A DNA stretch of 37,837 nucleotides from a candidate division CPR2 bacterium GW2011_GWC2_39_35 (GTDB taxonomy: Bacteria; Patescibacteriota; CPR2). The stretch spans positions 233,192-271,028 of the forward strand of contig LBWX01000003.1 in assembly GCA_000995065.1 (NCBI GenBank), in the 5' to 3' direction. A model generated the notes under the pieces. That model ran no database searches. It was not told where the DNA came from and saw only the letters and a program-made list of their open reading frames with translations. Position 1 is the stretch's first letter. Every line of letters starts with the position of its first letter. A program made the position numbers and the translations under genes. Below are positions 4,381 through 34,982 of this stretch, in pieces.

Positions 4381-4809
4381 TTAGCCGCCAAAAGTAGACG
4401 TCCCTGTAGCGCCTTCCCAGCTTGGGCTGTAGATTGTATAACCTCCAGCAGTAATACTCATACTGATTATATAGCGAGTGGAACCATTTGGATCCATTGG
4501 ATATTGGCTTCCAGCTATATAAGTGTTTGGATAGCTAGTAGCAAGACCGGAAAAAGCAGCAGCATTATTATTAGTAGACAAAGTATACGACGTAGCTGCA
4601 GCAAGGCTAGATAATGCCCCGCCGTCTGTCCTATACCTCTCGATTGCATCTCTAATTTGACTCATGTCTGCTGCTCTTCTAGCATCTCTAGCGGCTGGTC
4701 CCTGGTTGCCGACTCTTATCATAATAATTCCGGCTAAAGCGGCAATAATAACTACCACCACTATAAGCTCGATAAGGGTGAAACCCTTGTTGTTTAATTT
4801 TTTAAGCAT
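4381..4809 (-). CDS. Type IV pilin (cluster A)
   Basis: The 142-residue prepilin has a short basic leader ending in KG, then FTLIEL and a 20-residue hydrophobic helix. Glycine -1, phenylalanine +1 and glutamate +5 are all present. The region after the helix (AARDARRAADMSQIRDAIERY) is the usual pilin helix, followed by a Ser/Thr/Ala/Gly-rich globular domain with no cysteines. It probably forms the filament subunit of pilus A. GGAGGG sits 7 nt before the ATG at 4809. The gene has its own promoter (4852-4881) and a strong terminator, so it can be expressed at higher level than the assembly genes upstream, as expected for a major pilin. Confidence 0.92.
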   Translation of the reverse strand: MLKKLNNKGFTLIELIVVVVIIAALAGIIMIRVGNQGPAARDARRAADMSQIRDAIERYRTDGGALSSLAAATSYTLSTNNNAAAFSGLATSYPNTYIAGSQYPMDPNGSTRYIISMSITAGGYTIYSPSWEGATGTSTFGG

Positions 4810-4851: not shown

Positions 4852-4881
4852 ATGTTAGTTTAATGAAGCATGAATTGTCAA
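4852..4881 (-). promoter_or_regulatory. Promoter of cluster A pilin
   Basis: A perfect -35 box TTGACA (4876-4881) is followed, after 18 bp, by TAACAT (4852-4857). It lies about 45 bp upstream of the pilin ATG. The cluster B pilin has the same layout (TTGACA, 18 bp, TAATAT). Confidence 0.65.
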
Positions 4882-4894
4882 GCAATAATTAAGA

Positions 4895-4921
4895 GTTAAC
4901 AGATAACAGAAAACTGTTAAC
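4895..4921 (+). repeat. Left inverted repeat of four-helix-bundle cassette
   Basis: It begins GTTAACAGATAACAG and is itself partly palindromic (GTTAAC at both ends). It is repeated inverted at 5285-5311 with three mismatches. Confidence 0.9.
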
Positions 4922-4924
4922 GCC

Positions 4925-5281
4925 TTAAGAATTGATTTTTTCTTTTACCTTAACTATAACAGCCCATAAAATTTTACCGACTTCTTCTGCCAAAGCAATC
5001 ATTGTCTTGTAGTCCTCTTTAGTAATCCAACCTTCTTTAAAACTAAAATTAAGCAAATATTTGGTTTCTTTTAAAGAACCGTAAGAAATAAGCAAGAACT
5101 GTTTAAAGCTTCTATCTCCTTGCCTCGCAAATCCTTCAACAATATTTAATGGAACCGATAAGGCGGCACGTCTTAATTGTGATGTTAGTCCGTACAACTC
5201 TTCCTTTGGAAAATGCCTAGTAAGCGAATATACTAAATGTGCCAGTTCATCAGATTTTTCTAACAAAATACTGTCTTTCAT
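4925..5281 (-). CDS. Four-helix-bundle protein (23S rRNA intervening-sequence protein family)
   Basis: The 118-residue protein has the layout and signature residues of the S23/IVP family (TIGR02436-like): ELAHLVYSLTRHFPKEELYGLTSQLRRAALSVP is followed by NIVEGFARQ and FLLISYGSLKETKYLL. The family forms small four-helix bundles that oligomerise into barrels. It is related to the bAvd accessory protein of diversity-generating retroelements, but no reverse transcriptase is visible here. The cellular role is unknown. It has no link to pilus assembly other than position, and the inverted repeats 3 bp outside the ORF suggest it arrived as a unit. The ATG at 5281 is the only good start. Confidence 0.92.
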   Translation of the reverse strand: MKDSILLEKSDELAHLVYSLTRHFPKEELYGLTSQLRRAALSVPLNIVEGFARQGDRSFKQFLLISYGSLKETKYLLNFSFKEGWITKEDYKTMIALAEEVGKILWAVIVKVKEKINS

Positions 5282-5284
5282 AGT

Positions 5285-5311
5285 GTCAACTGTTTCCTGT
5301 TATCTGTTAAC
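5285..5311 (-). repeat. Right inverted repeat of four-helix-bundle cassette
   Basis: Inverted partner of 4895-4921. On the minus strand it contains AGGAAA, which may act as a distant ribosome-binding site for the ORF. Confidence 0.9.
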
Positions 5312-5325
5312 TTTATCACTACTTC

Positions 5326-6543
5326 CTATCCTCCCTTCATAGCGTCCATGGCGTCGTAAATCGGCGTTATGATGGAATAATAAACTAAGCCTACTCCTAA
5401 TCCAACAACGATAATAAGCATCGGCTCTAAGAGCTTAGAAAGATTATTTAAAGAGGTCTCCACTTCTTCCTCATAATACTCGGCAAGTTTTCTGGTTACC
5501 TCATCTAAGGCTCCCGTTTTTTCACCAACCGAAATCATCTGGATTATATCTGGTGTAAATCTCTTAGACCCTTTTAGGGCTTCGGATAAGCTCTCGCCAT
5601 TTTTAATCTTAGACTGAGTTCTTTTGAGCTCCGTTTCGTAATGAACATTACCGATAGATTTTGCCGTTAAGTCAACACATTTTAAGATAGGCAAGCCGCT
5701 GCCGATTAGGACTGATAATGTTCTGGAAAACCTAGCCATATAGATTTTTTCCATTATCTGGCCGATGACCGGAATTTTAGTAACTAAATTACTCCAAAAG
5801 TTCTGCCCGCTTCTTACATTTTTTATGTAATACAGAAATCCCACGACAGGCATCACTAGTATTGGAATGAAAATAAACCAATATTTAATTGAGAAATCGC
5901 TCATGCCTACCAAGATTCTGGTAGTAAAAGGTAGGTCGCCGCCAGCACTCATAATCATACCTTTAAGCCGAGGCACCAAGTAATATACCACGACGCCCCA
6001 AGCGCCAAATAAAGCCAGTAAAATCATGGCTGGGTATAAAGCAGCACTTTTGGCTTTCCGCTTCATCGCATAATCTTTTTCCATTTGTCCGGCCACTTTC
6101 TTTAGAAATTCATCTAACCGTCCAGCCTCCTCACCTGCAGCAATAAGATTTACAAAAACATCCGAAAACAGATTTGGAAATTGACTTAAGGAAGACGCCA
6201 GAGGAGTACCCCCTTCCACATCCTTTGCCACAATTTTAATAACTTGGGCAAAATTTTTGTTCTGCTGTTTTTGGGCAAGCGTAACAAGAGCATCAACTAT
6301 AGGCAAACCGCTGCTTATCATAATAGAAAGCTCTCTCACAAAGACAACTTTGTCTTTTAAACTTATGGGAGTAAAACGATTTTTGACATTCTCTACCGTT
6401 AAAGTCTCGTTTTTTCTATCTACTCCGGTCGTAATTAAGCCGTGGTCCCTAAGGATTGCCACCACCTCGTCTACATTCCTTGCTTCGAGAGCGCCCTCTG
6501 ACAAGTTGCCCTTTTTGTCTCTAGCTTTATATAAAAATTCCAT
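5326..6543 (-). CDS. pilC: Type IV pilus inner-membrane platform protein PilC (cluster A)
   Basis: The 405-residue protein has two GspF/T2SF repeats, each a helical cytoplasmic domain (about residues 68-190 and 272-395), and three membrane helices (about 170-190, 220-240 and 375-395). Typical motifs are visible: FVRELSIMISSGLPI in the first repeat, FSRTLSVLIGSGLPI in the second, GEEAGRL and GEKTGAL, and LLEPMLIIVVG near the end. PilC links the ATPase PilB to the growing pilus. The ATG at 6543 follows GAGGGG by 5 nt. The gene is separated from the upstream pilMNO genes by a palindromic repeat (6593-6691) and from the downstream pilin by the four-helix cassette. Confidence 0.95.
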   Translation of the reverse strand: MEFLYKARDKKGNLSEGALEARNVDEVVAILRDHGLITTGVDRKNETLTVENVKNRFTPISLKDKVVFVRELSIMISSGLPIVDALVTLAQKQQNKNFAQVIKIVAKDVEGGTPLASSLSQFPNLFSDVFVNLIAAGEEAGRLDEFLKKVAGQMEKDYAMKRKAKSAALYPAMILLALFGAWGVVVYYLVPRLKGMIMSAGGDLPFTTRILVGMSDFSIKYWFIFIPILVMPVVGFLYYIKNVRSGQNFWSNLVTKIPVIGQIMEKIYMARFSRTLSVLIGSGLPILKCVDLTAKSIGNVHYETELKRTQSKIKNGESLSEALKGSKRFTPDIIQMISVGEKTGALDEVTRKLAEYYEEEVETSLNNLSKLLEPMLIIVVGLGVGLVYYSIITPIYDAMDAMKGG

Positions 6544-16223: not shown

Positions 16224-18155
16224 ATGAAAATCAAAGGTAACGAAATAAAATACTTGCTTGTTTCCTCCGGCCTTATCGCTGAAGACCAACTTAAAGAGGC
16301 CGAAAAAGAAGCGTCTGAAGCCGGACAAAGCCTGGACCAGTATTTAGTCTCTAAAAAAATCGTTTCCGAAAGAGAGCTCTTTAAAACTTACGCCAAATAT
16401 ATAAACGTTCCTTATATCGATCTTCGAGACAGAATTGTTTCTAAAAATATTCTTTTTAAACTTCCGGAAAAACATGCCGAAAAATACCAAGCCGTATTCT
16501 TTGCCGAAGAAAACGGTATTTTCTTTTTGGCAATGTCGGATCCGGAAGATTTTCAGGCTGTCCAATTCATCGAGAAACAATCCGGCTTTCGAGTAAAAGT
16601 TTTTATGGCCACCAGCACCGATGTTTCTTACATTTTAGACCAATACAAAGAAGGTCTTCATTCCGAAATATCTCAAGCTATCGTTGAATCTGAAGAACAA
16701 GTCCAAGAATTTAAAGAAGAATTAAAAGATAACGCAACCACGGCACAAATTAATGAAATTGTTAAGGAAGCACCAATCGCCAAAGCTTTAAGCGTTCTCT
16801 TGGAATACGCCGTGAAGCAAAGAGCCTCCGATATCCATATCGAACCTAGAGAAAGCACAATCATGGTTCGCTATAGAGTAGACGGAGTTTTAAGAGAAAC
16901 AATGACTTTGCCTTTGGCTATTCAATCCGCTTTAGTCACGAGGATTAAAATAATCTCAAATCTTAAAATAGACGAGCATCGTATTCCTCAAGATGGGCGC
17001 TTTAAAGTAAATATTGGGGACAAAACTATCGCCCTCCGTGTATCTACCCTGCCTGTAATTTACGGCGAAAAAATTGTCATGCGTCTTCTCGACGAATCCT
17101 CCAAGCCCCTCAATTTAGAAGAACTTGGATTTAAAGGAAAAGCCTTAGAAATTATAAAAAGAAATTTAGACAAATCTCATGGCATGGTTTTAGTAACCGG
17201 ACCAACAGGTTCCGGAAAATCAACTACCCTTTACTCCATCTTAAACATTTTAAATACCACCGGAGTAAATATCTCCACCGTAGAAGATCCGATTGAATAC
17301 CGCATAAACGGCGTTAACCAAACTCAAACAAACACCAAAGCCGGTATGACTTTTGCCTCGGGACTTAGAGCTCTTTTAAGACAAGATCCTGACATCATCA
17401 TGGTGGGAGAAATCCGAGACACCGAAACCGCCGAAATGGCAATTCATGCTTCCCTTACCGGACATGTTGTTCTTTCAACTCTCCACACCAATAATGCCGC
17501 CACTACCCTGCCCCGATTTGCTGACATGGGCGTAGAGGCTTTTTTAATTGCCTCTACTGTTAATACAGTTATTGCCCAAAGGTTAGTACGAACCATCTGC
17601 CCGGAATGTAAAGAAAGCTACGAGCCAAATGCCGCCATGATCGAACAAATTCATGACGCCTTTAAGTTAAAAAGTCAAATCATAAATAATCCTAAAGACG
17701 AAGAAGATTCTAAGCTCCAAAATCAGGGCGAAAAGAAATTAAGAGGTCCGGCAAATAGCGAGCTTTATCATCGATCTATTTTAGAAAAGATTGCCGAAGA
17801 CCCCAGTATTTTAAACAGAAAAGCTGATGACGATAACGAAAAAACTACCGCAAAAGAAACAAGGCCAACCGAAACCAAAGAAAAAAACACCGAAAATGCA
17901 CCCGAAAAGATTGTTCTTTATAGAGGCAAAGGTTGCAGCAAATGCGATCAGGGTTATAAGGGCCGGATGGGCATCTATGAAGTATTGGAAATCGATACAG
18001 AAATTGGAGATATGATTATAAACCACAAATCCGCCGAGGATATCGAAGAAGCTGCCACAAAAAGAGGCATGCTTACCATGCAGCAGGACGGATTCTTAAA
18101 ATCCTTAGAAGGAATTACAACTATAGAAGAAGTATTAAGAGTAACTAAAGAGTAA
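16224..18155 (+). CDS. pilB: Pilus assembly ATPase PilB
   Basis: The 643-residue hexameric ATPase powers pilus extension. An N-terminal MshEN/GspE-N domain (about 1-150) is followed by the ATPase core with Walker A GPTGSGKST (326-334), VEDPIEY (Asp box), Walker B region DPDIIMVGEIRD, and the His box LTGHVVLSTLHTNNA. The zinc-binding tetracysteine is split: CPEC at 459-462 and CSKC at 571-574, with 108 residues between, most of them a charged, low-complexity insertion; most relatives have a few tens. AGGA lies 8 nt before the ATG at 16224. It is the first gene of cluster B and the only pilus ATPase in the window, so it may also serve cluster A. Confidence 0.97.
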   Translation: MKIKGNEIKYLLVSSGLIAEDQLKEAEKEASEAGQSLDQYLVSKKIVSERELFKTYAKYINVPYIDLRDRIVSKNILFKLPEKHAEKYQAVFFAEENGIFFLAMSDPEDFQAVQFIEKQSGFRVKVFMATSTDVSYILDQYKEGLHSEISQAIVESEEQVQEFKEELKDNATTAQINEIVKEAPIAKALSVLLEYAVKQRASDIHIEPRESTIMVRYRVDGVLRETMTLPLAIQSALVTRIKIISNLKIDEHRIPQDGRFKVNIGDKTIALRVSTLPVIYGEKIVMRLLDESSKPLNLEELGFKGKALEIIKRNLDKSHGMVLVTGPTGSGKSTTLYSILNILNTTGVNISTVEDPIEYRINGVNQTQTNTKAGMTFASGLRALLRQDPDIIMVGEIRDTETAEMAIHASLTGHVVLSTLHTNNAATTLPRFADMGVEAFLIASTVNTVIAQRLVRTICPECKESYEPNAAMIEQIHDAFKLKSQIINNPKDEEDSKLQNQGEKKLRGPANSELYHRSILEKIAEDPSILNRKADDDNEKTTAKETRPTETKEKNTENAPEKIVLYRGKGCSKCDQGYKGRMGIYEVLEIDTEIGDMIINHKSAEDIEEAATKRGMLTMQQDGFLKSLEGITTIEEVLRVTKE

Positions 18156-28424: not shown

Positions 28425-31400
28425 CTAAAACCACTCATCTCTCTTAAAAAGCCCGCCTATGTTTTTCACCCAGGAGAAGGTGTCTTCTAAGGATTTTATG
28501 ATTAGCTGGAGGATGGATTTTTCCTGAGTTGGGGTTACAAATGAAAGGTCGCTGGATTCGGTTAGGTTGCCCCGTTTGTCTTTGGCCCTAATGTGAAAAT
28601 GATATGTAGTAGAAGGATTTAAGTCTTTGATTATTACCGTGTGACTCGTTGTGTGGTTTTGGTCTTCTGTGGTTTTGTACTCGTATTTACCGGAAATAAC
28701 GCCTTCGCCGTATTCTATCTGCTTAGTGGATGGTTTATTAGTTACCCAAGTAATTATAACTCCGGCATATTCGTCTTCTGAGCCCATGGGCAAGAGATCA
28801 ATCTTTATATCTTTTATTTCAGGGCCGGTGGTATCCAGCGGAGTTTTAAATTGGTAAACCTGGCTCTTTGCCTCGTTACCGTGTTTGTCCCTGGCTAAAA
28901 TCTGGAAATAATACTGGGTATTATCTTCCAGGGAATCGAGGGTCATTTCGTGGGCCTTGCCTTGCTGGGAAGATCCTTTTCTTAATCCTAAAGCCTCATC
29001 TTTACCATAAGCTATCTGGGAGTCGGTATTTACGTTAGTCTCCCAAAAAATTGTGGCATCGTAGAAGTTTAGATCCTTTATTTTGATATTAGGAATTTCG
29101 GGGCGTAAAACGGCAGTAAACTGGTATTCTTGGGAGACATATTCAATATTATAAGAATCCGTACCTTTAACCCGGTAATAGTAAACCTGACCGGGCGTTA
29201 AGTTCTTTAGATCGATAACGTGTTTTAAAGAATGATTGTTATCCCCGGCCGACATAGAGTAGTTTGCGGAAACAAGGCCGTACTCTACCCAAGAGGTGGT
29301 GGCAATAGCCGTATCCCAAACTATTCTGGCAGAGGTAGCGGTGATGTTTTCTTCCGCCACTTTAGTGGCATCGGGCGCAATAGTAAACTGGGCGCTGTCA
29401 AAGACTCTTGTCTGGAAGGTCTTAAATTCCGTTTCCGACAAAAACTTATCTCCCGTTACAGACCGTATCTTATAGGTATATGTGCGGCCGGGTTTTAGAG
29501 CCTTAATTATAACCTGATGATTTTTTACCAAAGACGGCTCGCCGGCTGTTTGAGATGGTTCTTCAGCTTCACCAGACAGTTTCTCCAGCTTATATTCAGC
29601 CGAGGAATCGGAATCTATATTAGTATTCCAGCTAACCGTAGCCGTGGTGGTGGTAGTTTCTACCCTGATATCCATAATCGCAAAATCTAAAGTGGAAAAT
29701 TCGCGCCAAGTTGCCGCCGCTGAGTCATCAATATTGCCTAGAGAGTTTCTGGAAACTATACGATATTCATAAGCTGATCCTTTGTTTAGAGCCTTTATAT
29801 CAACAGAGTGGTTAGCGGTTGGTTCGGTTCTGTCTTTACCGGCCGCAATTACCGTATTCGTTCCTTTTACCCTATATTCAACCAAAGAATCGGTACTTTG
29901 GTCGGTATCCCAGATGATAGTTGCTGAAGAAACACCAATATTTATTGCTTGCGGATTTGATACCGTGGGTTTGGCAATAGCCGGGTTTATAGAAACAGGA
30001 GCCAGATAACTAGATTCATTATTCATTGCCTGGCCGCCAACTGCCGGATTAATAACTGTTCCAGTTAAATACTTAAATTCGGTGCCGGCATTATCCACAG
30101 CCGTTACGTAATAATAAAATTCTTTATTTGAATCTGCCTCGACAATGCCATCAACATGGTAATTGTCTTCTATACTTGTTTTAGTGGCTATAACCTGGAG
30201 GTCTGTTTTAAAAACAGTATCAAAATAGCGATAGACCCGATATTCCTTAAAATCTAAAACACCATTTCTTTTATTCTGATCATCTAAACTTGACAGCATC
30301 TGCCAAGTAATAATGTTTCTTAAAAGAGTGTTTTCTATGCCATGAATATCTTTAACTTTTACGTCTTGGGGAGCCTTTGGCTTAGTTACATCCGGAGTTG
30401 TGTCCCATCCAAAATGAGGCTGATTTAAGTCAACAGAAGACAAGGTAGAAATAAATGGCACTGGGGTGTCATTGGAAAAAGCGGTGACACGATAATAATA
30501 AGCTGTAGCATCGAGTATCTTGGAGGTTTGGCCCTTGGTTAGCGTAAAACTTTGGGAGGCTCCAGCGCCAGAGCGGCTTAAATAAGATTTAGGAACGCCG
30601 GAGGCTACATCGGCATTGGAAATATCGTCATCAACATAGTTATAGGTAACGTTTGATTCGTCAAAAGATAAGTTTCCGCCCAAATTAACTGTTACAATTA
30701 AAGCTGCTTCATTTAGCCACTGAGTTGATGTTTGACCCTGGGGAGTAATAATCGAACGGTAAATCTTATAGCCAGCTATTCGATAGCTATTGCCGATATC
30801 CCCCGTTGGCATTTTTGAACCTTTATAAGTAACGGTATTTTTATGGCCGACTTCCGCATCGGTAATTAAACCAGTTCTAGTAGTTACCGTTACCTCCGTT
30901 GGCGCCGTTGGCGTTGAGTTGTTCGGCGTACTTGCTGTTACTGCTCCTGTAAAATAATCCGTGGCATCGCTCGGGTTACCCGCAGAATCAACGGCATAAA
31001 TCTTGTATTCATAGGTTTCCGCGCCGTTAGAACTAAAATTATAATTATCCGTCGCATTCGTGCTTGTATTGCTAGACCTATAAATATTTGCGGTGATATC
31101 TGCAAAAGAACCTTCCGGGGATGGAAAAGTTTTTCTCCTGTAAATTCGGTAATCTGTAGTTCCAGAACCGTTTCCGGATGGCGTTCTTAAAGTGTTTTTT
31201 ACATCAATGCTAGGCGCCCAGGAAAGATCAATCTGATTGTAGGCCACAGGATCAGCCGAAAGATTGGTTGGAATTGGCGGCGGTGTCGCGTCAACCGTTT
31301 TGGCTTTGTTCCAGTTTCTAATACCTGTTGGGTCTAAGAGATTAGATGATGGGATAACGGCTGATTTGTTTCCGGATGGATCAACAGCCACTATCCGATA

Positions 31401-34400
31401 ATGATATGTTGCAAAGTCGTTTAATTTGGTTGAAACCTCGGTTTTAACAATGCCGTCGAAAGCTAAATTGTTAGCGTCATTATCGTAGTAGACCAAAGCC
31501 GGTCCACCCTGCATATTTAAATAGCCCACTAATTTATAAACGTTTTGATCCCCCGATGGCTGATCGGCATCATTTTGATTCCGGTAAATTTCGTATCTGG
31601 AAATTGTACCCGAACCATCAGAAGCCGCGCCCCAGTTGATCTTTATTTCATATCCTTTATTGGCTACATCGAAGCAGTTGGGAGCCGTACCGTCGCACGC
31701 CGTAGATATAACATCTGATGGATCGCTTGGTGCGCTGGTGTCTAACGAGGTTACTTCAACATAATTGCTCCAATCAGAGGTAAGATTCGCCCCATCTTTC
31801 GACCGAATACGATAATGATATCTAATACCGTTTTCCAGGCCCGGATCGGTGTAGCTAGTTACATTTCCAAGCTGAAGCGTTACCGCATCAATGTTCCAAT
31901 CCTGATAATATTTAATTCTTTGGATTTCGTAACCGGCCATCCCGGCTCCGGTTCCGTCGCTCGAAGTATCCCACGCAAAAGAGATAGCTCCCGGATTAGA
32001 AGTGTCTACCACCCTAAAATTGTTAACGCCTGTTGGATTTAAATTATCAAACTTGTAGATAAACTCTGTTGGGGTCTCGCTTTCGTTGCCAGCATTGTCA
32101 TATGACACTACTCTAAAGTAGTATTGGCCATTAATTGCAAGACTTGTCACTTGATTATGATTGTTTCTCGTGGCCTCTGCAATCATAGTTGATGGCACAC
32201 CGGCGTTTAAATCAAAATAATATTTGTATCCGGCAATGCCCGAAGCATCAAGATTATTATTTTTGTCATTTGCAGTTTGATCCCAGGCAAAATACGGGTT
32301 TTGATAAGTCTGCCAATCGGCAGCGATAAGATCGGTCCCAGGGGTTTCAATATCAGGATGCACTTTTAGATTAGAAACATTGGCAGGAGGGGTAATGTCT
32401 AGGATAATTTGATCACTTTCATTGACACTTATATTCCCTGCCATATCTTTTGCTCTTACATAAACGGTTTTAGCAGCATCCGCACCTTCCAAATACCAAG
32501 CATTAGTAATATCCTGGGAAATCCCGGAAGCAGTTCTTTCCACATAATGCGTCCAGTCGGTACTTTTACTGTTTACGGTTCCGGTACCTGAATATGCCCC
32601 CCAATTCGTGCCGTCTTCGGAAAATTGAATTTTAAGATTACCCGATGAGCCGCCCGTATCGTTAAATATTCCGGATGCCGTTAAAGTTCTTGTTGAGGAA
32701 TTGGCATACGTTGTTCCGAAATTTAGGGAAAAATTAGACACGGTCGGCTGACCTTGTTCTATGTTAAACCGCCCTTCGGTACTAGACCAACCGGAAACCC
32801 TTCCGACAGAATCCAAATATCTTACTTTATACTTATAATTTCCAGGACTTAATCCTGTTTGGCTAACACTTAAAACTGCGGGTGAACCGTTATATGAAAA
32901 GGCCGAGCCCTCAGCAGTGTGATTTCCGGAAAAAGGATTAGCCAAAGGAACAACTTCAATTTGAGGAGTTAGTGTTGTGCCCCCTTCCACTCCGCTTGCA
33001 TAAAAACTGGATTTTATTTGAGTTTCGTTAGTCCAGCCGTCCCAGCCTATTACTGTTGTCCCATCGGAACGGTATGCACTGAGCGTACCGGGCGGGTCAA
33101 GAAAATTGTACATAAGCTTAAGCTCAAATAATGTCGGTTCTGCATCTGCCCCCGTTCCCGTAAACTGGAGTTTTATTTCTATTCTTCTTGTGGGTGTTAA
33201 ACTGCTTAGATTTATTTCACCTACGCCTTCATTAGGCCCTACTGATATATTGTCTCCATCAGGTAAGTCCTGCCAAGTACCGGAATAAGTATTAACTGCA
33301 TTTATCCAGTCATCATTAAAGGTACGGTATTGAACCTTAATAGCTCTTGAAACAGGGATGCTGGTAATGCTTCTTAAAGATGCCCATTTATATTTTTTTC
33401 CTTGCCCGGCATCAAAACGAAGACCACCCTCACCAATGGTACCGGAAGCATAAAAAGGATTCAGAACCTGGTATACATAAACTCCGCTTCCACCAGGTCC
33501 ACCATAACTGCCACTTGTATAGCCTGGCAAAACAGAAGGCGTGCCGGATACAGAAGGAGACTCAATCGTTATTCTGCCTCCGCCACCATGACCGCCGTCA
33601 CTAGAATTATAGGCCGTTTCGACACCGCCTCCGCCACCATTCGCAGAAATCAAATTAGCATTAGCGATATTGCTTGAGGATTTAATATATATACCTCCGC
33701 CACTACCTCCACCACCGGTATTACAAGAGAGGCAATTTGAGGAAGAACCACCACTAGCTAAAATAGTACCATTGTTGATCAGGTTTACCTGATATGCTTT
33801 GATTTGAGCCAATCCACCTCCATTACCGCCTACTTGGCCACTACTGCCACCGCTGCCACCCGAACCGTAATCAGGAAAGTCAAAATAAGGACCCCTTAGT
33901 ACGGGATTCCCAGGTTCACCCCACACAGAGCCATAACCCCCAACACCCCCATAAGCACCACCATTACCGGGGTGATTCAACAAGCCTCTTCCTCCCCCAG
34001 GTCCGGAGCCGTCTCCATAAAGACCACCTCCGCCATAACCCTTACCACTCGCATCAACCTTAGAAGTAGCACCATCAATAATAAATTTTCCTAAATTAGA
34101 ATCATCCCAGGTCATACCGCCTGGTTTAGTACTGGCTACATTGATATCGATGCCCTTTGTCGCATAGCCCGCCATGCCTTGCTGGTGCGTAACATTTCCA
34201 CCGTTTATTATTTTAAAACTTGTGAAGTTAAAGATTCTTTTCCCCAAGCCATGATTCGTTCCCGTAGAATTGTCAATGGCGTACGGAAGAGTTACTGTAA
34301 CCCCGTTCTTTAAGTAAGTGCCATCCGGTCTTCTGATGGTTAATATATTATTGTTTAAGAGAAACGAACCATCAGAACCGTCACCAAAATTAATAGACGT

Positions 34401-34982
34401 TGCCATCTTCACGTCTCCACCAGCCGTAACATCCAGCTGACCGGCCGGATTTTGCGTTGTTGCATCGCCTGTAGTGTTTGAATTATTAAGAAAATGACCC
34501 TGATCCGTCCAGCTAACACTATTCGCCCCGGCCTGCACCGGCTTGGGTTTGGGAGTAAAGTTATAGGGAGACAAAAATTGAATCGTCAGAAAAAGAACGG
34601 TCGAAAAAACAAAAGCCGAAATCGAAGTATAATGGATGTGTTTTTTGTAAGGAGAGGAAGACATCTTATAATAAGTCTTTTGCTTAGCATAAAGTTTGTA
34701 ATGAAATTTATAAAAAGTCACGTGCAAAAAATATCGAAGTTCTGCGATTACAAGACGAACAACCATTAAAGAACGAATAATGTTTTTAAGTAAACCCGGC
34801 TTATCTAAAATACTATCTTTCTTTTGATATTTCTTACCAACATGCTCTACATATTTAGAAAACCTAAAGAAAAGACGAGCCTCCCGGCTTATCCTCCCCA
34901 AAGGGTTAGACCCTTTTTGAAAGGGTCTAACCCTTTTTGGGGCTTTAATCTTTCTAATTTTCTTAAAGATTTTCTTGTTCAT
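28425..34982 (-). CDS. Giant glycine-rich, multi-FN3 surface protein
   Basis: The 2185-residue protein has a long basic N-terminal segment (1-115), a membrane/signal helix (about 116-136) and an extracellular remainder. Residues 313-470 are very glycine-rich (GYGGGG, GGSGGSSG, GGGGSGGG). From about 640 onward fibronectin-III-like beta domains follow (FAWDTSSDG, YRIRSKDG, INWGAASDGSG motifs). The last 470 residues hold five tandem purple-acid-phosphatase-type FN3 repeats, each with W[DEN]T or WVT, then STDS-like and EYG/EYK. A short amphipathic C-terminus ends FKRDEWF. It is probably a cell-attached adhesin or sheath protein. AAGGA lies 4 nt before the ATG at 34982. Residues 14-29 are encoded by a palindromic repeat. 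No sortase motif was seen. Confidence 0.9.
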   Translation of the reverse strand: MNKKIFKKIRKIKAPKRVRPFQKGSNPLGRISREARLFFRFSKYVEHVGKKYQKKDSILDKPGLLKNIIRSLMVVRLVIAELRYFLHVTFYKFHYKLYAKQKTYYKMSSSPYKKHIHYTSISAFVFSTVLFLTIQFLSPYNFTPKPKPVQAGANSVSWTDQGHFLNNSNTTGDATTQNPAGQLDVTAGGDVKMATSINFGDGSDGSFLLNNNILTIRRPDGTYLKNGVTVTLPYAIDNSTGTNHGLGKRIFNFTSFKIINGGNVTHQQGMAGYATKGIDINVASTKPGGMTWDDSNLGKFIIDGATSKVDASGKGYGGGGLYGDGSGPGGGRGLLNHPGNGGAYGGVGGYGSVWGEPGNPVLRGPYFDFPDYGSGGSGGSSGQVGGNGGGLAQIKAYQVNLINNGTILASGGSSSNCLSCNTGGGGSGGGIYIKSSSNIANANLISANGGGGGVETAYNSSDGGHGGGGRITIESPSVSGTPSVLPGYTSGSYGGPGGSGVYVYQVLNPFYASGTIGEGGLRFDAGQGKKYKWASLRSITSIPVSRAIKVQYRTFNDDWINAVNTYSGTWQDLPDGDNISVGPNEGVGEINLSSLTPTRRIEIKLQFTGTGADAEPTLFELKLMYNFLDPPGTLSAYRSDGTTVIGWDGWTNETQIKSSFYASGVEGGTTLTPQIEVVPLANPFSGNHTAEGSAFSYNGSPAVLSVSQTGLSPGNYKYKVRYLDSVGRVSGWSSTEGRFNIEQGQPTVSNFSLNFGTTYANSSTRTLTASGIFNDTGGSSGNLKIQFSEDGTNWGAYSGTGTVNSKSTDWTHYVERTASGISQDITNAWYLEGADAAKTVYVRAKDMAGNISVNESDQIILDITPPANVSNLKVHPDIETPGTDLIAADWQTYQNPYFAWDQTANDKNNNLDASGIAGYKYYFDLNAGVPSTMIAEATRNNHNQVTSLAINGQYYFRVVSYDNAGNESETPTEFIYKFDNLNPTGVNNFRVVDTSNPGAISFAWDTSSDGTGAGMAGYEIQRIKYYQDWNIDAVTLQLGNVTSYTDPGLENGIRYHYRIRSKDGANLTSDWSNYVEVTSLDTSAPSDPSDVISTACDGTAPNCFDVANKGYEIKINWGAASDGSGTISRYEIYRNQNDADQPSGDQNVYKLVGYLNMQGGPALVYYDNDANNLAFDGIVKTEVSTKLNDFATYHYRIVAVDPSGNKSAVIPSSNLLDPTGIRNWNKAKTVDATPPPIPTNLSADPVAYNQIDLSWAPSIDVKNTLRTPSGNGSGTTDYRIYRRKTFPSPEGSFADITANIYRSSNTSTNATDNYNFSSNGAETYEYKIYAVDSAGNPSDATDYFTGAVTASTPNNSTPTAPTEVTVTTRTGLITDAEVGHKNTVTYKGSKMPTGDIGNSYRIAGYKIYRSIITPQGQTSTQWLNEAALIVTVNLGGNLSFDESNVTYNYVDDDISNADVASGVPKSYLSRSGAGASQSFTLTKGQTSKILDATAYYYRVTAFSNDTPVPFISTLSSVDLNQPHFGWDTTPDVTKPKAPQDVKVKDIHGIENTLLRNIITWQMLSSLDDQNKRNGVLDFKEYRVYRYFDTVFKTDLQVIATKTSIEDNYHVDGIVEADSNKEFYYYVTAVDNAGTEFKYLTGTVINPAVGGQAMNNESSYLAPVSINPAIAKPTVSNPQAINIGVSSATIIWDTDQSTDSLVEYRVKGTNTVIAAGKDRTEPTANHSVDIKALNKGSAYEYRIVSRNSLGNIDDSAAATWREFSTLDFAIMDIRVETTTTTATVSWNTNIDSDSSAEYKLEKLSGEAEEPSQTAGEPSLVKNHQVIIKALKPGRTYTYKIRSVTGDKFLSETEFKTFQTRVFDSAQFTIAPDATKVAEENITATSARIVWDTAIATTSWVEYGLVSANYSMSAGDNNHSLKHVIDLKNLTPGQVYYYRVKGTDSYNIEYVSQEYQFTAVLRPEIPNIKIKDLNFYDATIFWETNVNTDSQIAYGKDEALGLRKGSSQQGKAHEMTLDSLEDNTQYYFQILARDKHGNEAKSQVYQFKTPLDTTGPEIKDIKIDLLPMGSEDEYAGVIITWVTNKPSTKQIEYGEGVISGKYEYKTTEDQNHTTSHTVIIKDLNPSTTYHFHIRAKDKRGNLTESSDLSFVTPTQEKSILQLIIKSLEDTFSWVKNIGGLFKRDEWF
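34896..34942 (+). repeat. Palindromic repeat translated in giant protein N-terminus
   Basis: AAAGGGTTAGACCCTTT (34900-34916) and its perfect inverse (34920-34936) with a 3-nt loop; outer CCCC/GGGG add a further 4 bp. It is read as APKRVRPFQKGSNPLG. Confidence 0.9.

Follow-up and report, generated by a model that had tools for sequence, protein, structure and literature searches.

A four-helix-bundle gene between pilC and a pilin gene is very probably one copy of a widespread mobile cassette with inverted heptad ends

Intervening sequences (IVSs) carrying an ORF for the protein S23p are known from 23S rRNA genes of Leptospira and Coxiella (Ralph and McClelland 1993; PMC4990558). The Coxiella 23S IVS is 428 nt long and has a 28-bp stem, with heptamers GACAGAT just before the ATG of S23p (PMC4990558), and the RNA of rRNA IVSs is excised by RNase III with no subsequent ligation. 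Heptamer repeats have been described separately in cyanobacteria, Xanthomonas and Beggiatoaceae as STRR, GGGAATC, GGGGA(C/T)T and TAACTGA (PMC4692102, PMC4679880). Furthermore, two CRISPR surveys place the PF05635 family, to which the IVS protein belongs, in cas loci, and one of them lists 18 such genes (PMC3936711).

The window analysed here, a stretch of 37,837 nucleotides from the candidate division CPR2 bacterium GW2011_GWC2_39_35, carries a member of this family in a protein operon. The initial annotation had reported a 118-codon ORF of the 23S rRNA IVS family, placed between pilC and a pilin gene and enclosed by inverted repeats 3 bp from its start and stop codons, and this description holds, with all features on the minus strand. 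The ORF (4925-5281, ATG start, 118 aa) matches PF05635 (23S_rRNA_IVP; E=5e-33, 113.8 bits against a curated cut-off of 33.8) and TIGR02436, 'four helix bundle protein' (E=3e-32, 111.3 bits, cut-off 24). Upstream of it in the operon lies pilC (T2SSF; 5326-6543; PF00482, E=3e-61), and downstream lies a pilin or GspG-like gene (4381-4809). In gene sense, the upstream arm (5285-5312, heptads AGTTAACAGATAACAGGAAACAGTTGAC) stops 3 bp before the ATG, and the downstream arm (4894-4921, GTTAACAGTTTTCTGTTATCTGTTAACT) starts 3 bp past the stop codon in inverted orientation; the two are 28 nt long and complementary at 25 of 28 positions. The entire cassette, if its outer ends are those of the arms, spans 419 bp (4894-5312). 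The repeats, first described as 27 bp long, are not unique 27-mers: each arm consists of degenerate heptads in tandem (GTTAACA GATAACA GAAAACT GTTAAC), and the downstream one scores as a period-7 array at 4880-4915. When the two 110-nt flanks were subjected to 3000 dinucleotide shuffles, the best score reached was 33 (mean 18.1, sd 3.0), compared with 49 for the observed arms; these shuffles, together with the control genes considered below, reject a chance inverted repeat.

The 118-aa ORF, with PF05635 as its only domain, is the sole gene of the cassette, which thus encodes no transposase and contains no recognisable recombinase. To our knowledge, no catalytic domain is known in a four-helix-bundle protein of the PF05635 family. 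Six residues, namely, Q35, R38, S42, N46, E49 and E72, are invariant and would be the place to look for a putative binding or active site. An Rfam scan of the window returned two distant tRNAs only, and the cassette does not lie inside a 16S or 23S rRNA gene. Between cassette and pilin gene, a candidate promoter-like site on the minus strand (4852-4881, TTGACA-18-TAACAT, 10/12 consensus match) may mean that pilin transcription need not run through the cassette. Elsewhere in the window, a GspE/PilB-type ATPase gene on the plus strand (16224-18155, MshEN and T2SSE) is perhaps the start of a second pilus or secretion cluster, and positions 28425-34982 code for 2185 aa, probably of a large surface protein, in which domains of the fibronectin III and purple acid phosphatase N-terminal types are recognised.

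The source genome (1.12 Mb) possesses two further PF05635 genes, which lie within imperfect inverted repeats of different sequence, again built of units of about 7 nt, so that all three copies show an inverted repeat and heptads. The family is present in 13 of 16 genomes of the class, with up to 13 matches per genome. At each locus, the downstream flank was reverse-complemented and compared with the upstream one, and own pairs were set against cross pairs. At 53 loci from class relatives, the mean arm score was 39.8 for own pairs versus 21.5 for cross pairs, and the own partner ranked first at 30 of them; the direct-orientation control at the same loci gave no signal (21.5 own, 21.4 cross). 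Self-matching of the flanks peaked at lag 7 (0.445 and 0.462, compared with about 0.29), and also at lag 14. An artefact of composition or of shared repeats is ruled out at these 53 loci by the cross-pair and direct-orientation controls. A wider sample of 79 PF05635 genes on 80 named contigs covered, according to the labels of the MAG contigs, Patescibacteria, Omnitrophota, Elusimicrobia, Desulfobacterota, Verrucomicrobia, Planctomycetes, Bacteroidota, Nitrospira, Chloroflexi and others; own-pair arms scored 38.1 versus 18.7 for cross pairs, and 58 loci exceeded the 95th percentile of the cross pairs. Almost no arm signal was obtained with 125 control genes from the same loci (19.4 versus 17.7; lag 7 0.31/0.30). 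The heptad inverted-repeat anatomy therefore surrounds most of the 132 PF05635 genes (53 and 79), in many phyla, these sets having automatically assigned ORF starts and including near-duplicates such as L041/L097, L166/L167 and L034/L056. About a quarter of the PF05635 loci are without a strong inverted repeat. The two heptad arrays are direct instead of inverted at L102, L142 and L186, the last of which has a long upstream run of AAAGCTA units. A search for the family in phages gave no match among 50,697 phages and two matches in viral contigs, and no rRNA-inserted copy was present among the 20 fetched loci that were scanned. In the source genome, solo heptad arrays (GTAAACAGATAACA...) whose units resemble those of the window cassette occur just upstream of start codons, with no adjoining four-helix-bundle ORF, at L023 (G000:C3:141185-141213) and L024 (G000:C4:79129-79157), and are possible footprints.

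The arms differ between loci, and are alike only between close relatives. For protein pairs with an identity of 70% or more, nearly all of which occupy unrelated sites, the heptads match on the same strand with a score of 35.0 versus 17.9 on the opposite strand, and arms are kept in the orthologous copies L034/L056 and L015/L016. One Desulfobacteraceae genome carries, at two loci, two copies that are 92% identical, their similarity starting inside the left array. Below 50% protein identity, the heptads no longer correlate, and over all pairs the partial correlation between heptad and protein similarity (r 0.08) falls within the permutation range (maximum 0.12). Since only pairs above about 50-70% identity show the signal, we claim no general recognition code.

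Sites filled in one replicon and empty in another provide direct views of insertion. The cassette of Trichormus variabilis plasmid C is absent from Aulosira, Nostoc, Microchaete and Tolypothrix plasmids, the flanks of which are 97.5-97.7% identical, and the filled site exceeds the empty one by 428 bp. The empty site reads AAGTAATTAACAAATAA, and in the filled one the left array is preceded by GTAATAAA and the right array is followed by GTAATTAA, which amounts to a 7-8 bp target duplication, GTAATTAA; in a degraded relative from Brasilonema, TAATTAA stands on both sides. Such a duplication is clear at this one site and ambiguous at the other filled/empty sites. At five further plasmid sites, one plasmid carries a cassette that others lack; among these cases, two plasmids of one Nostoc strain represent each other's empty site. 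In these comparisons, the difference takes in the arms as well as the ORF. Among plasmid copies 97% identical, that of Scytonema has exactly 14 bp, or two heptads, fewer in its left array. Where N. edaphicum carries the complete cassette, Nostoc ATCC 53789 pNsp_c harbours at the same point a heptad inverted repeat that lacks the ORF and measures about 260 bp (L194:712-973), which is MITE-like or a deletion derivative.

The same gap may also be occupied by different cassettes. In two relatives of the same genus, G001 and G002, one gap between the same two genes is occupied by cassettes unrelated to each other (L014 and L021), although the products of these genes share 98.6 and 97.5% identity (about 90% at the DNA level), and different cassettes stand before recR and before dnaJ in different genomes. 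REP-like repeats of the form GTCATTCCCGCGGAGGCGGGAATCCAG are found beside the cassettes in the L014 and L021 flanks. With regard to the pilC-pilin gap, that of G001 contains no PF05635 ORF, and a short run of heptads directly follows its pilC; relatives with 55-56% PilC identity have other sequence there in place of the ORF, and none provides an exact or near-identical empty site for the window copy. Comparison of this spacing in relatives, and a search of related genomes for the same ORF with flanking repeats, had been proposed at the outset; relatives thus do not all carry the ORF here, and repeat-bounded copies exist at many other loci. The element is not peculiar to the pilus operon, and the suggestion of an IVS-like, repeat-bounded mobile DNA unit in a protein operon gains support from both the recurrence and the filled/empty plasmid sites.

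Cassettes lie between many unrelated gene pairs, near recR, dnaJ, pheS, ruvA, tRNAs and plasmid transfer genes, and one of them (L054:791-1145) sits between the genes for tRNA-Gly and tRNA-Arg on the same strand. Among the 113 cassettes with both neighbours, both neighbours run in the sense of the ORF in 94 cases and both against it in one, compared with 78 and 10 for control genes. PF05635 cassettes are also present inside cas operons (cas6-cas4; cas10-cmr3), at L186, L187 and L189, which are on cyanobacterial plasmids. Because these copies are flanked by repeats broadly like those of the other cassettes, insertion is the simpler reading of the association with cas loci.

On the strength of this anatomy and its recurrence, the co-inheritance of ends and ORF, the filled and empty sites with one 7-8 bp duplication, the re-occupation of gaps and the sense bias, we conclude that the window gene is very probably one copy of a very widespread mobile element of about 420 bp with inverted degenerate-heptad ends, inserted in sense between co-transcribed genes. 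It is unlikely, in our view, that the cassette is instead an IVS acting at the RNA level, which RNase III would excise from the mRNA, with RNA selection keeping the arms complementary and mobility being incidental or due to reverse transcription. The sense bias (94:1), the folding of the sense RNA of the window copy with its ends paired (z = -3.8), the tRNA-flanked cassette at L054 and the known cleavage of rRNA IVSs by RNase III (PMC4990558) would all suit such an element; however, the need for host-driven expression also explains the bias, and a few copies have direct arms. Moreover, mismatches in the arms at 42 loci comprise 81 G.U and 71 A.C, whereas selected pairing in RNA would be expected to give an excess of G.U; nothing shows selection for RNA pairing, which this lack of bias leads us to reject as the selected feature. 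The source genome encodes no RVT_1 reverse transcriptase, a result on which mobility of the diversity-generating retroelement (DGR) or reverse-transcriptase kind was likewise rejected.

A classical IS-type transposon or MITE, for which a known transposase of the DDE or tyrosine type would act in trans and the four-helix-bundle gene would be a passenger, would account for the inverted ends, the 7-8 bp duplication and the ORF-less inverted repeat at the same plasmid point (L194), but appears quite unlikely, as the sequence of the ends is not fixed from one copy to the next and an ORF of the same family always occupies the same place between them, whereas a passenger would not show such conservation across phyla. 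No transposase element bearing these ends was encountered incidentally among the sequences analysed. We regard as very unlikely a scheme in which polymerase slippage and hairpin template switching build the heptads in gaps and homogenise the arms in place around a resident gene. Slippage has been blamed for the heptamer arrays over-represented in several genomes (PMC4679880, PMC4692102), and the solo arrays of the source genome and the two-heptad difference between 97%-identical plasmid copies fit it; yet the heptads accompany the ORF to unrelated sites, the orthologous pairs L034/L056 and L015/L016 have retained their arms, control genes have no such arms, and the filled/empty differences, by including the arms, refute slippage as the full explanation. 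It probably acts on top of mobility. Finally, a domesticated operon gene, such as a pilus or CRISPR regulator in need of flanking hairpins, would recur in pilus operons and in cas loci (18 genes, PMC3936711), as observed, but this reading is highly improbable given that the ORF occurs between many unrelated gene pairs and that the same gaps carry unrelated subfamilies or none.

As to how the mobile cassette might move, the whole unit, including its ends, would enter a gap between co-transcribed genes in sense orientation, so that the host operon would express its gene. Insertion as DNA, through a staggered-cut reaction, is preferred because of the target duplication and the lack of wobble bias in the arm mismatches. 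The solved Xanthomonas campestris relative XCC0516 (2gsc) is a ring of five (PMC4990558), from which we infer that the protein is multivalent and, as a multimer, may bind the heptads repeated at both ends of its own element. Since the element has no recognisable recombinase, cutting would be supplied by the host or another trans-acting enzyme. As in rRNA IVSs, RNase III may nick the transcript once its ends have paired, an event that an intercistronic site would tolerate, and the rRNA IVSs would be a branch inserted into 23S helix tips. More tentatively, and with rather more doubt than conviction, we propose a new class of transposase-less element, present in most bacterial phyla, in which a ring-forming protein recognises the heptad arrays at the ends of its element and either drives or guides entry of that element, in sense, into transcribed gaps; if true, rRNA IVSs would be its rRNA branch and many bacterial heptamer repeats its remnants.

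This is very probably a widespread mobile cassette that has been overlooked, its four-helix-bundle gene having been known till now mainly from rRNA insertions. It joins three puzzles, namely, the origin of rRNA IVSs, the abundance of the four-helix-bundle protein family and the intergenic heptamer repeats, at least part of which could originate from cassette ends. It would also explain the listing of this protein with CRISPR and pilus genes by insertion and not by function. With filled and empty plasmid copies in culturable cyanobacteria, the origin and movement of IVSs become directly testable.

Among known systems, rRNA IVSs are the closest. They share with the cassettes the protein family, a length of about 420-440 nt, an ORF closely enclosed by complementary ends, heptameric repeats immediately ahead of the start codon (for Coxiella, as given in PMC4990558), sense orientation in a transcription unit and a scattered distribution. 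They differ in that the cassettes are hosted by protein or tRNA operons and not by 23S rRNA, and in that insertion of the cassettes is documented by filled and empty sites. Given the anatomy shared with the Coxiella 23S IVS, rRNA IVSs are probably one branch of the heptad-ended element; for the window copy, 'works like an IVS' is a better description than 'is an rRNA IVS', as its host is not rRNA and excision at the RNA level is putative. The heptamer repeats of cyanobacteria, Xanthomonas and Beggiatoaceae are likewise intergenic and in tandem, often form inverted pairs in Xanthomonas campestris (70 cases) and lie near start codons in Beggiatoaceae, but were described without an associated gene, whereas in the present case such arrays form the two ends of cassettes with a four-helix-bundle gene. 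In the literature covered, which included few subscription papers or preprints, no link between heptamer repeats and PF05635 was found outside the Coxiella IVS. The DGR accessory proteins Avd/bAvd (PF22296, NF033474) are related four-helix bundles (E=7e-8 and 6e-6), but the window protein falls below their curated cut-offs (26.6 versus 80 bits), and the source genome has no RVT_1. MITEs and IS elements resemble the cassettes in their inverted ends and in the short target-site duplication, seen at one site, in a plasmid relative; they differ from them in that the cassette ends are variable heptad arrays and the one conserved gene carried between these ends is not a transposase.
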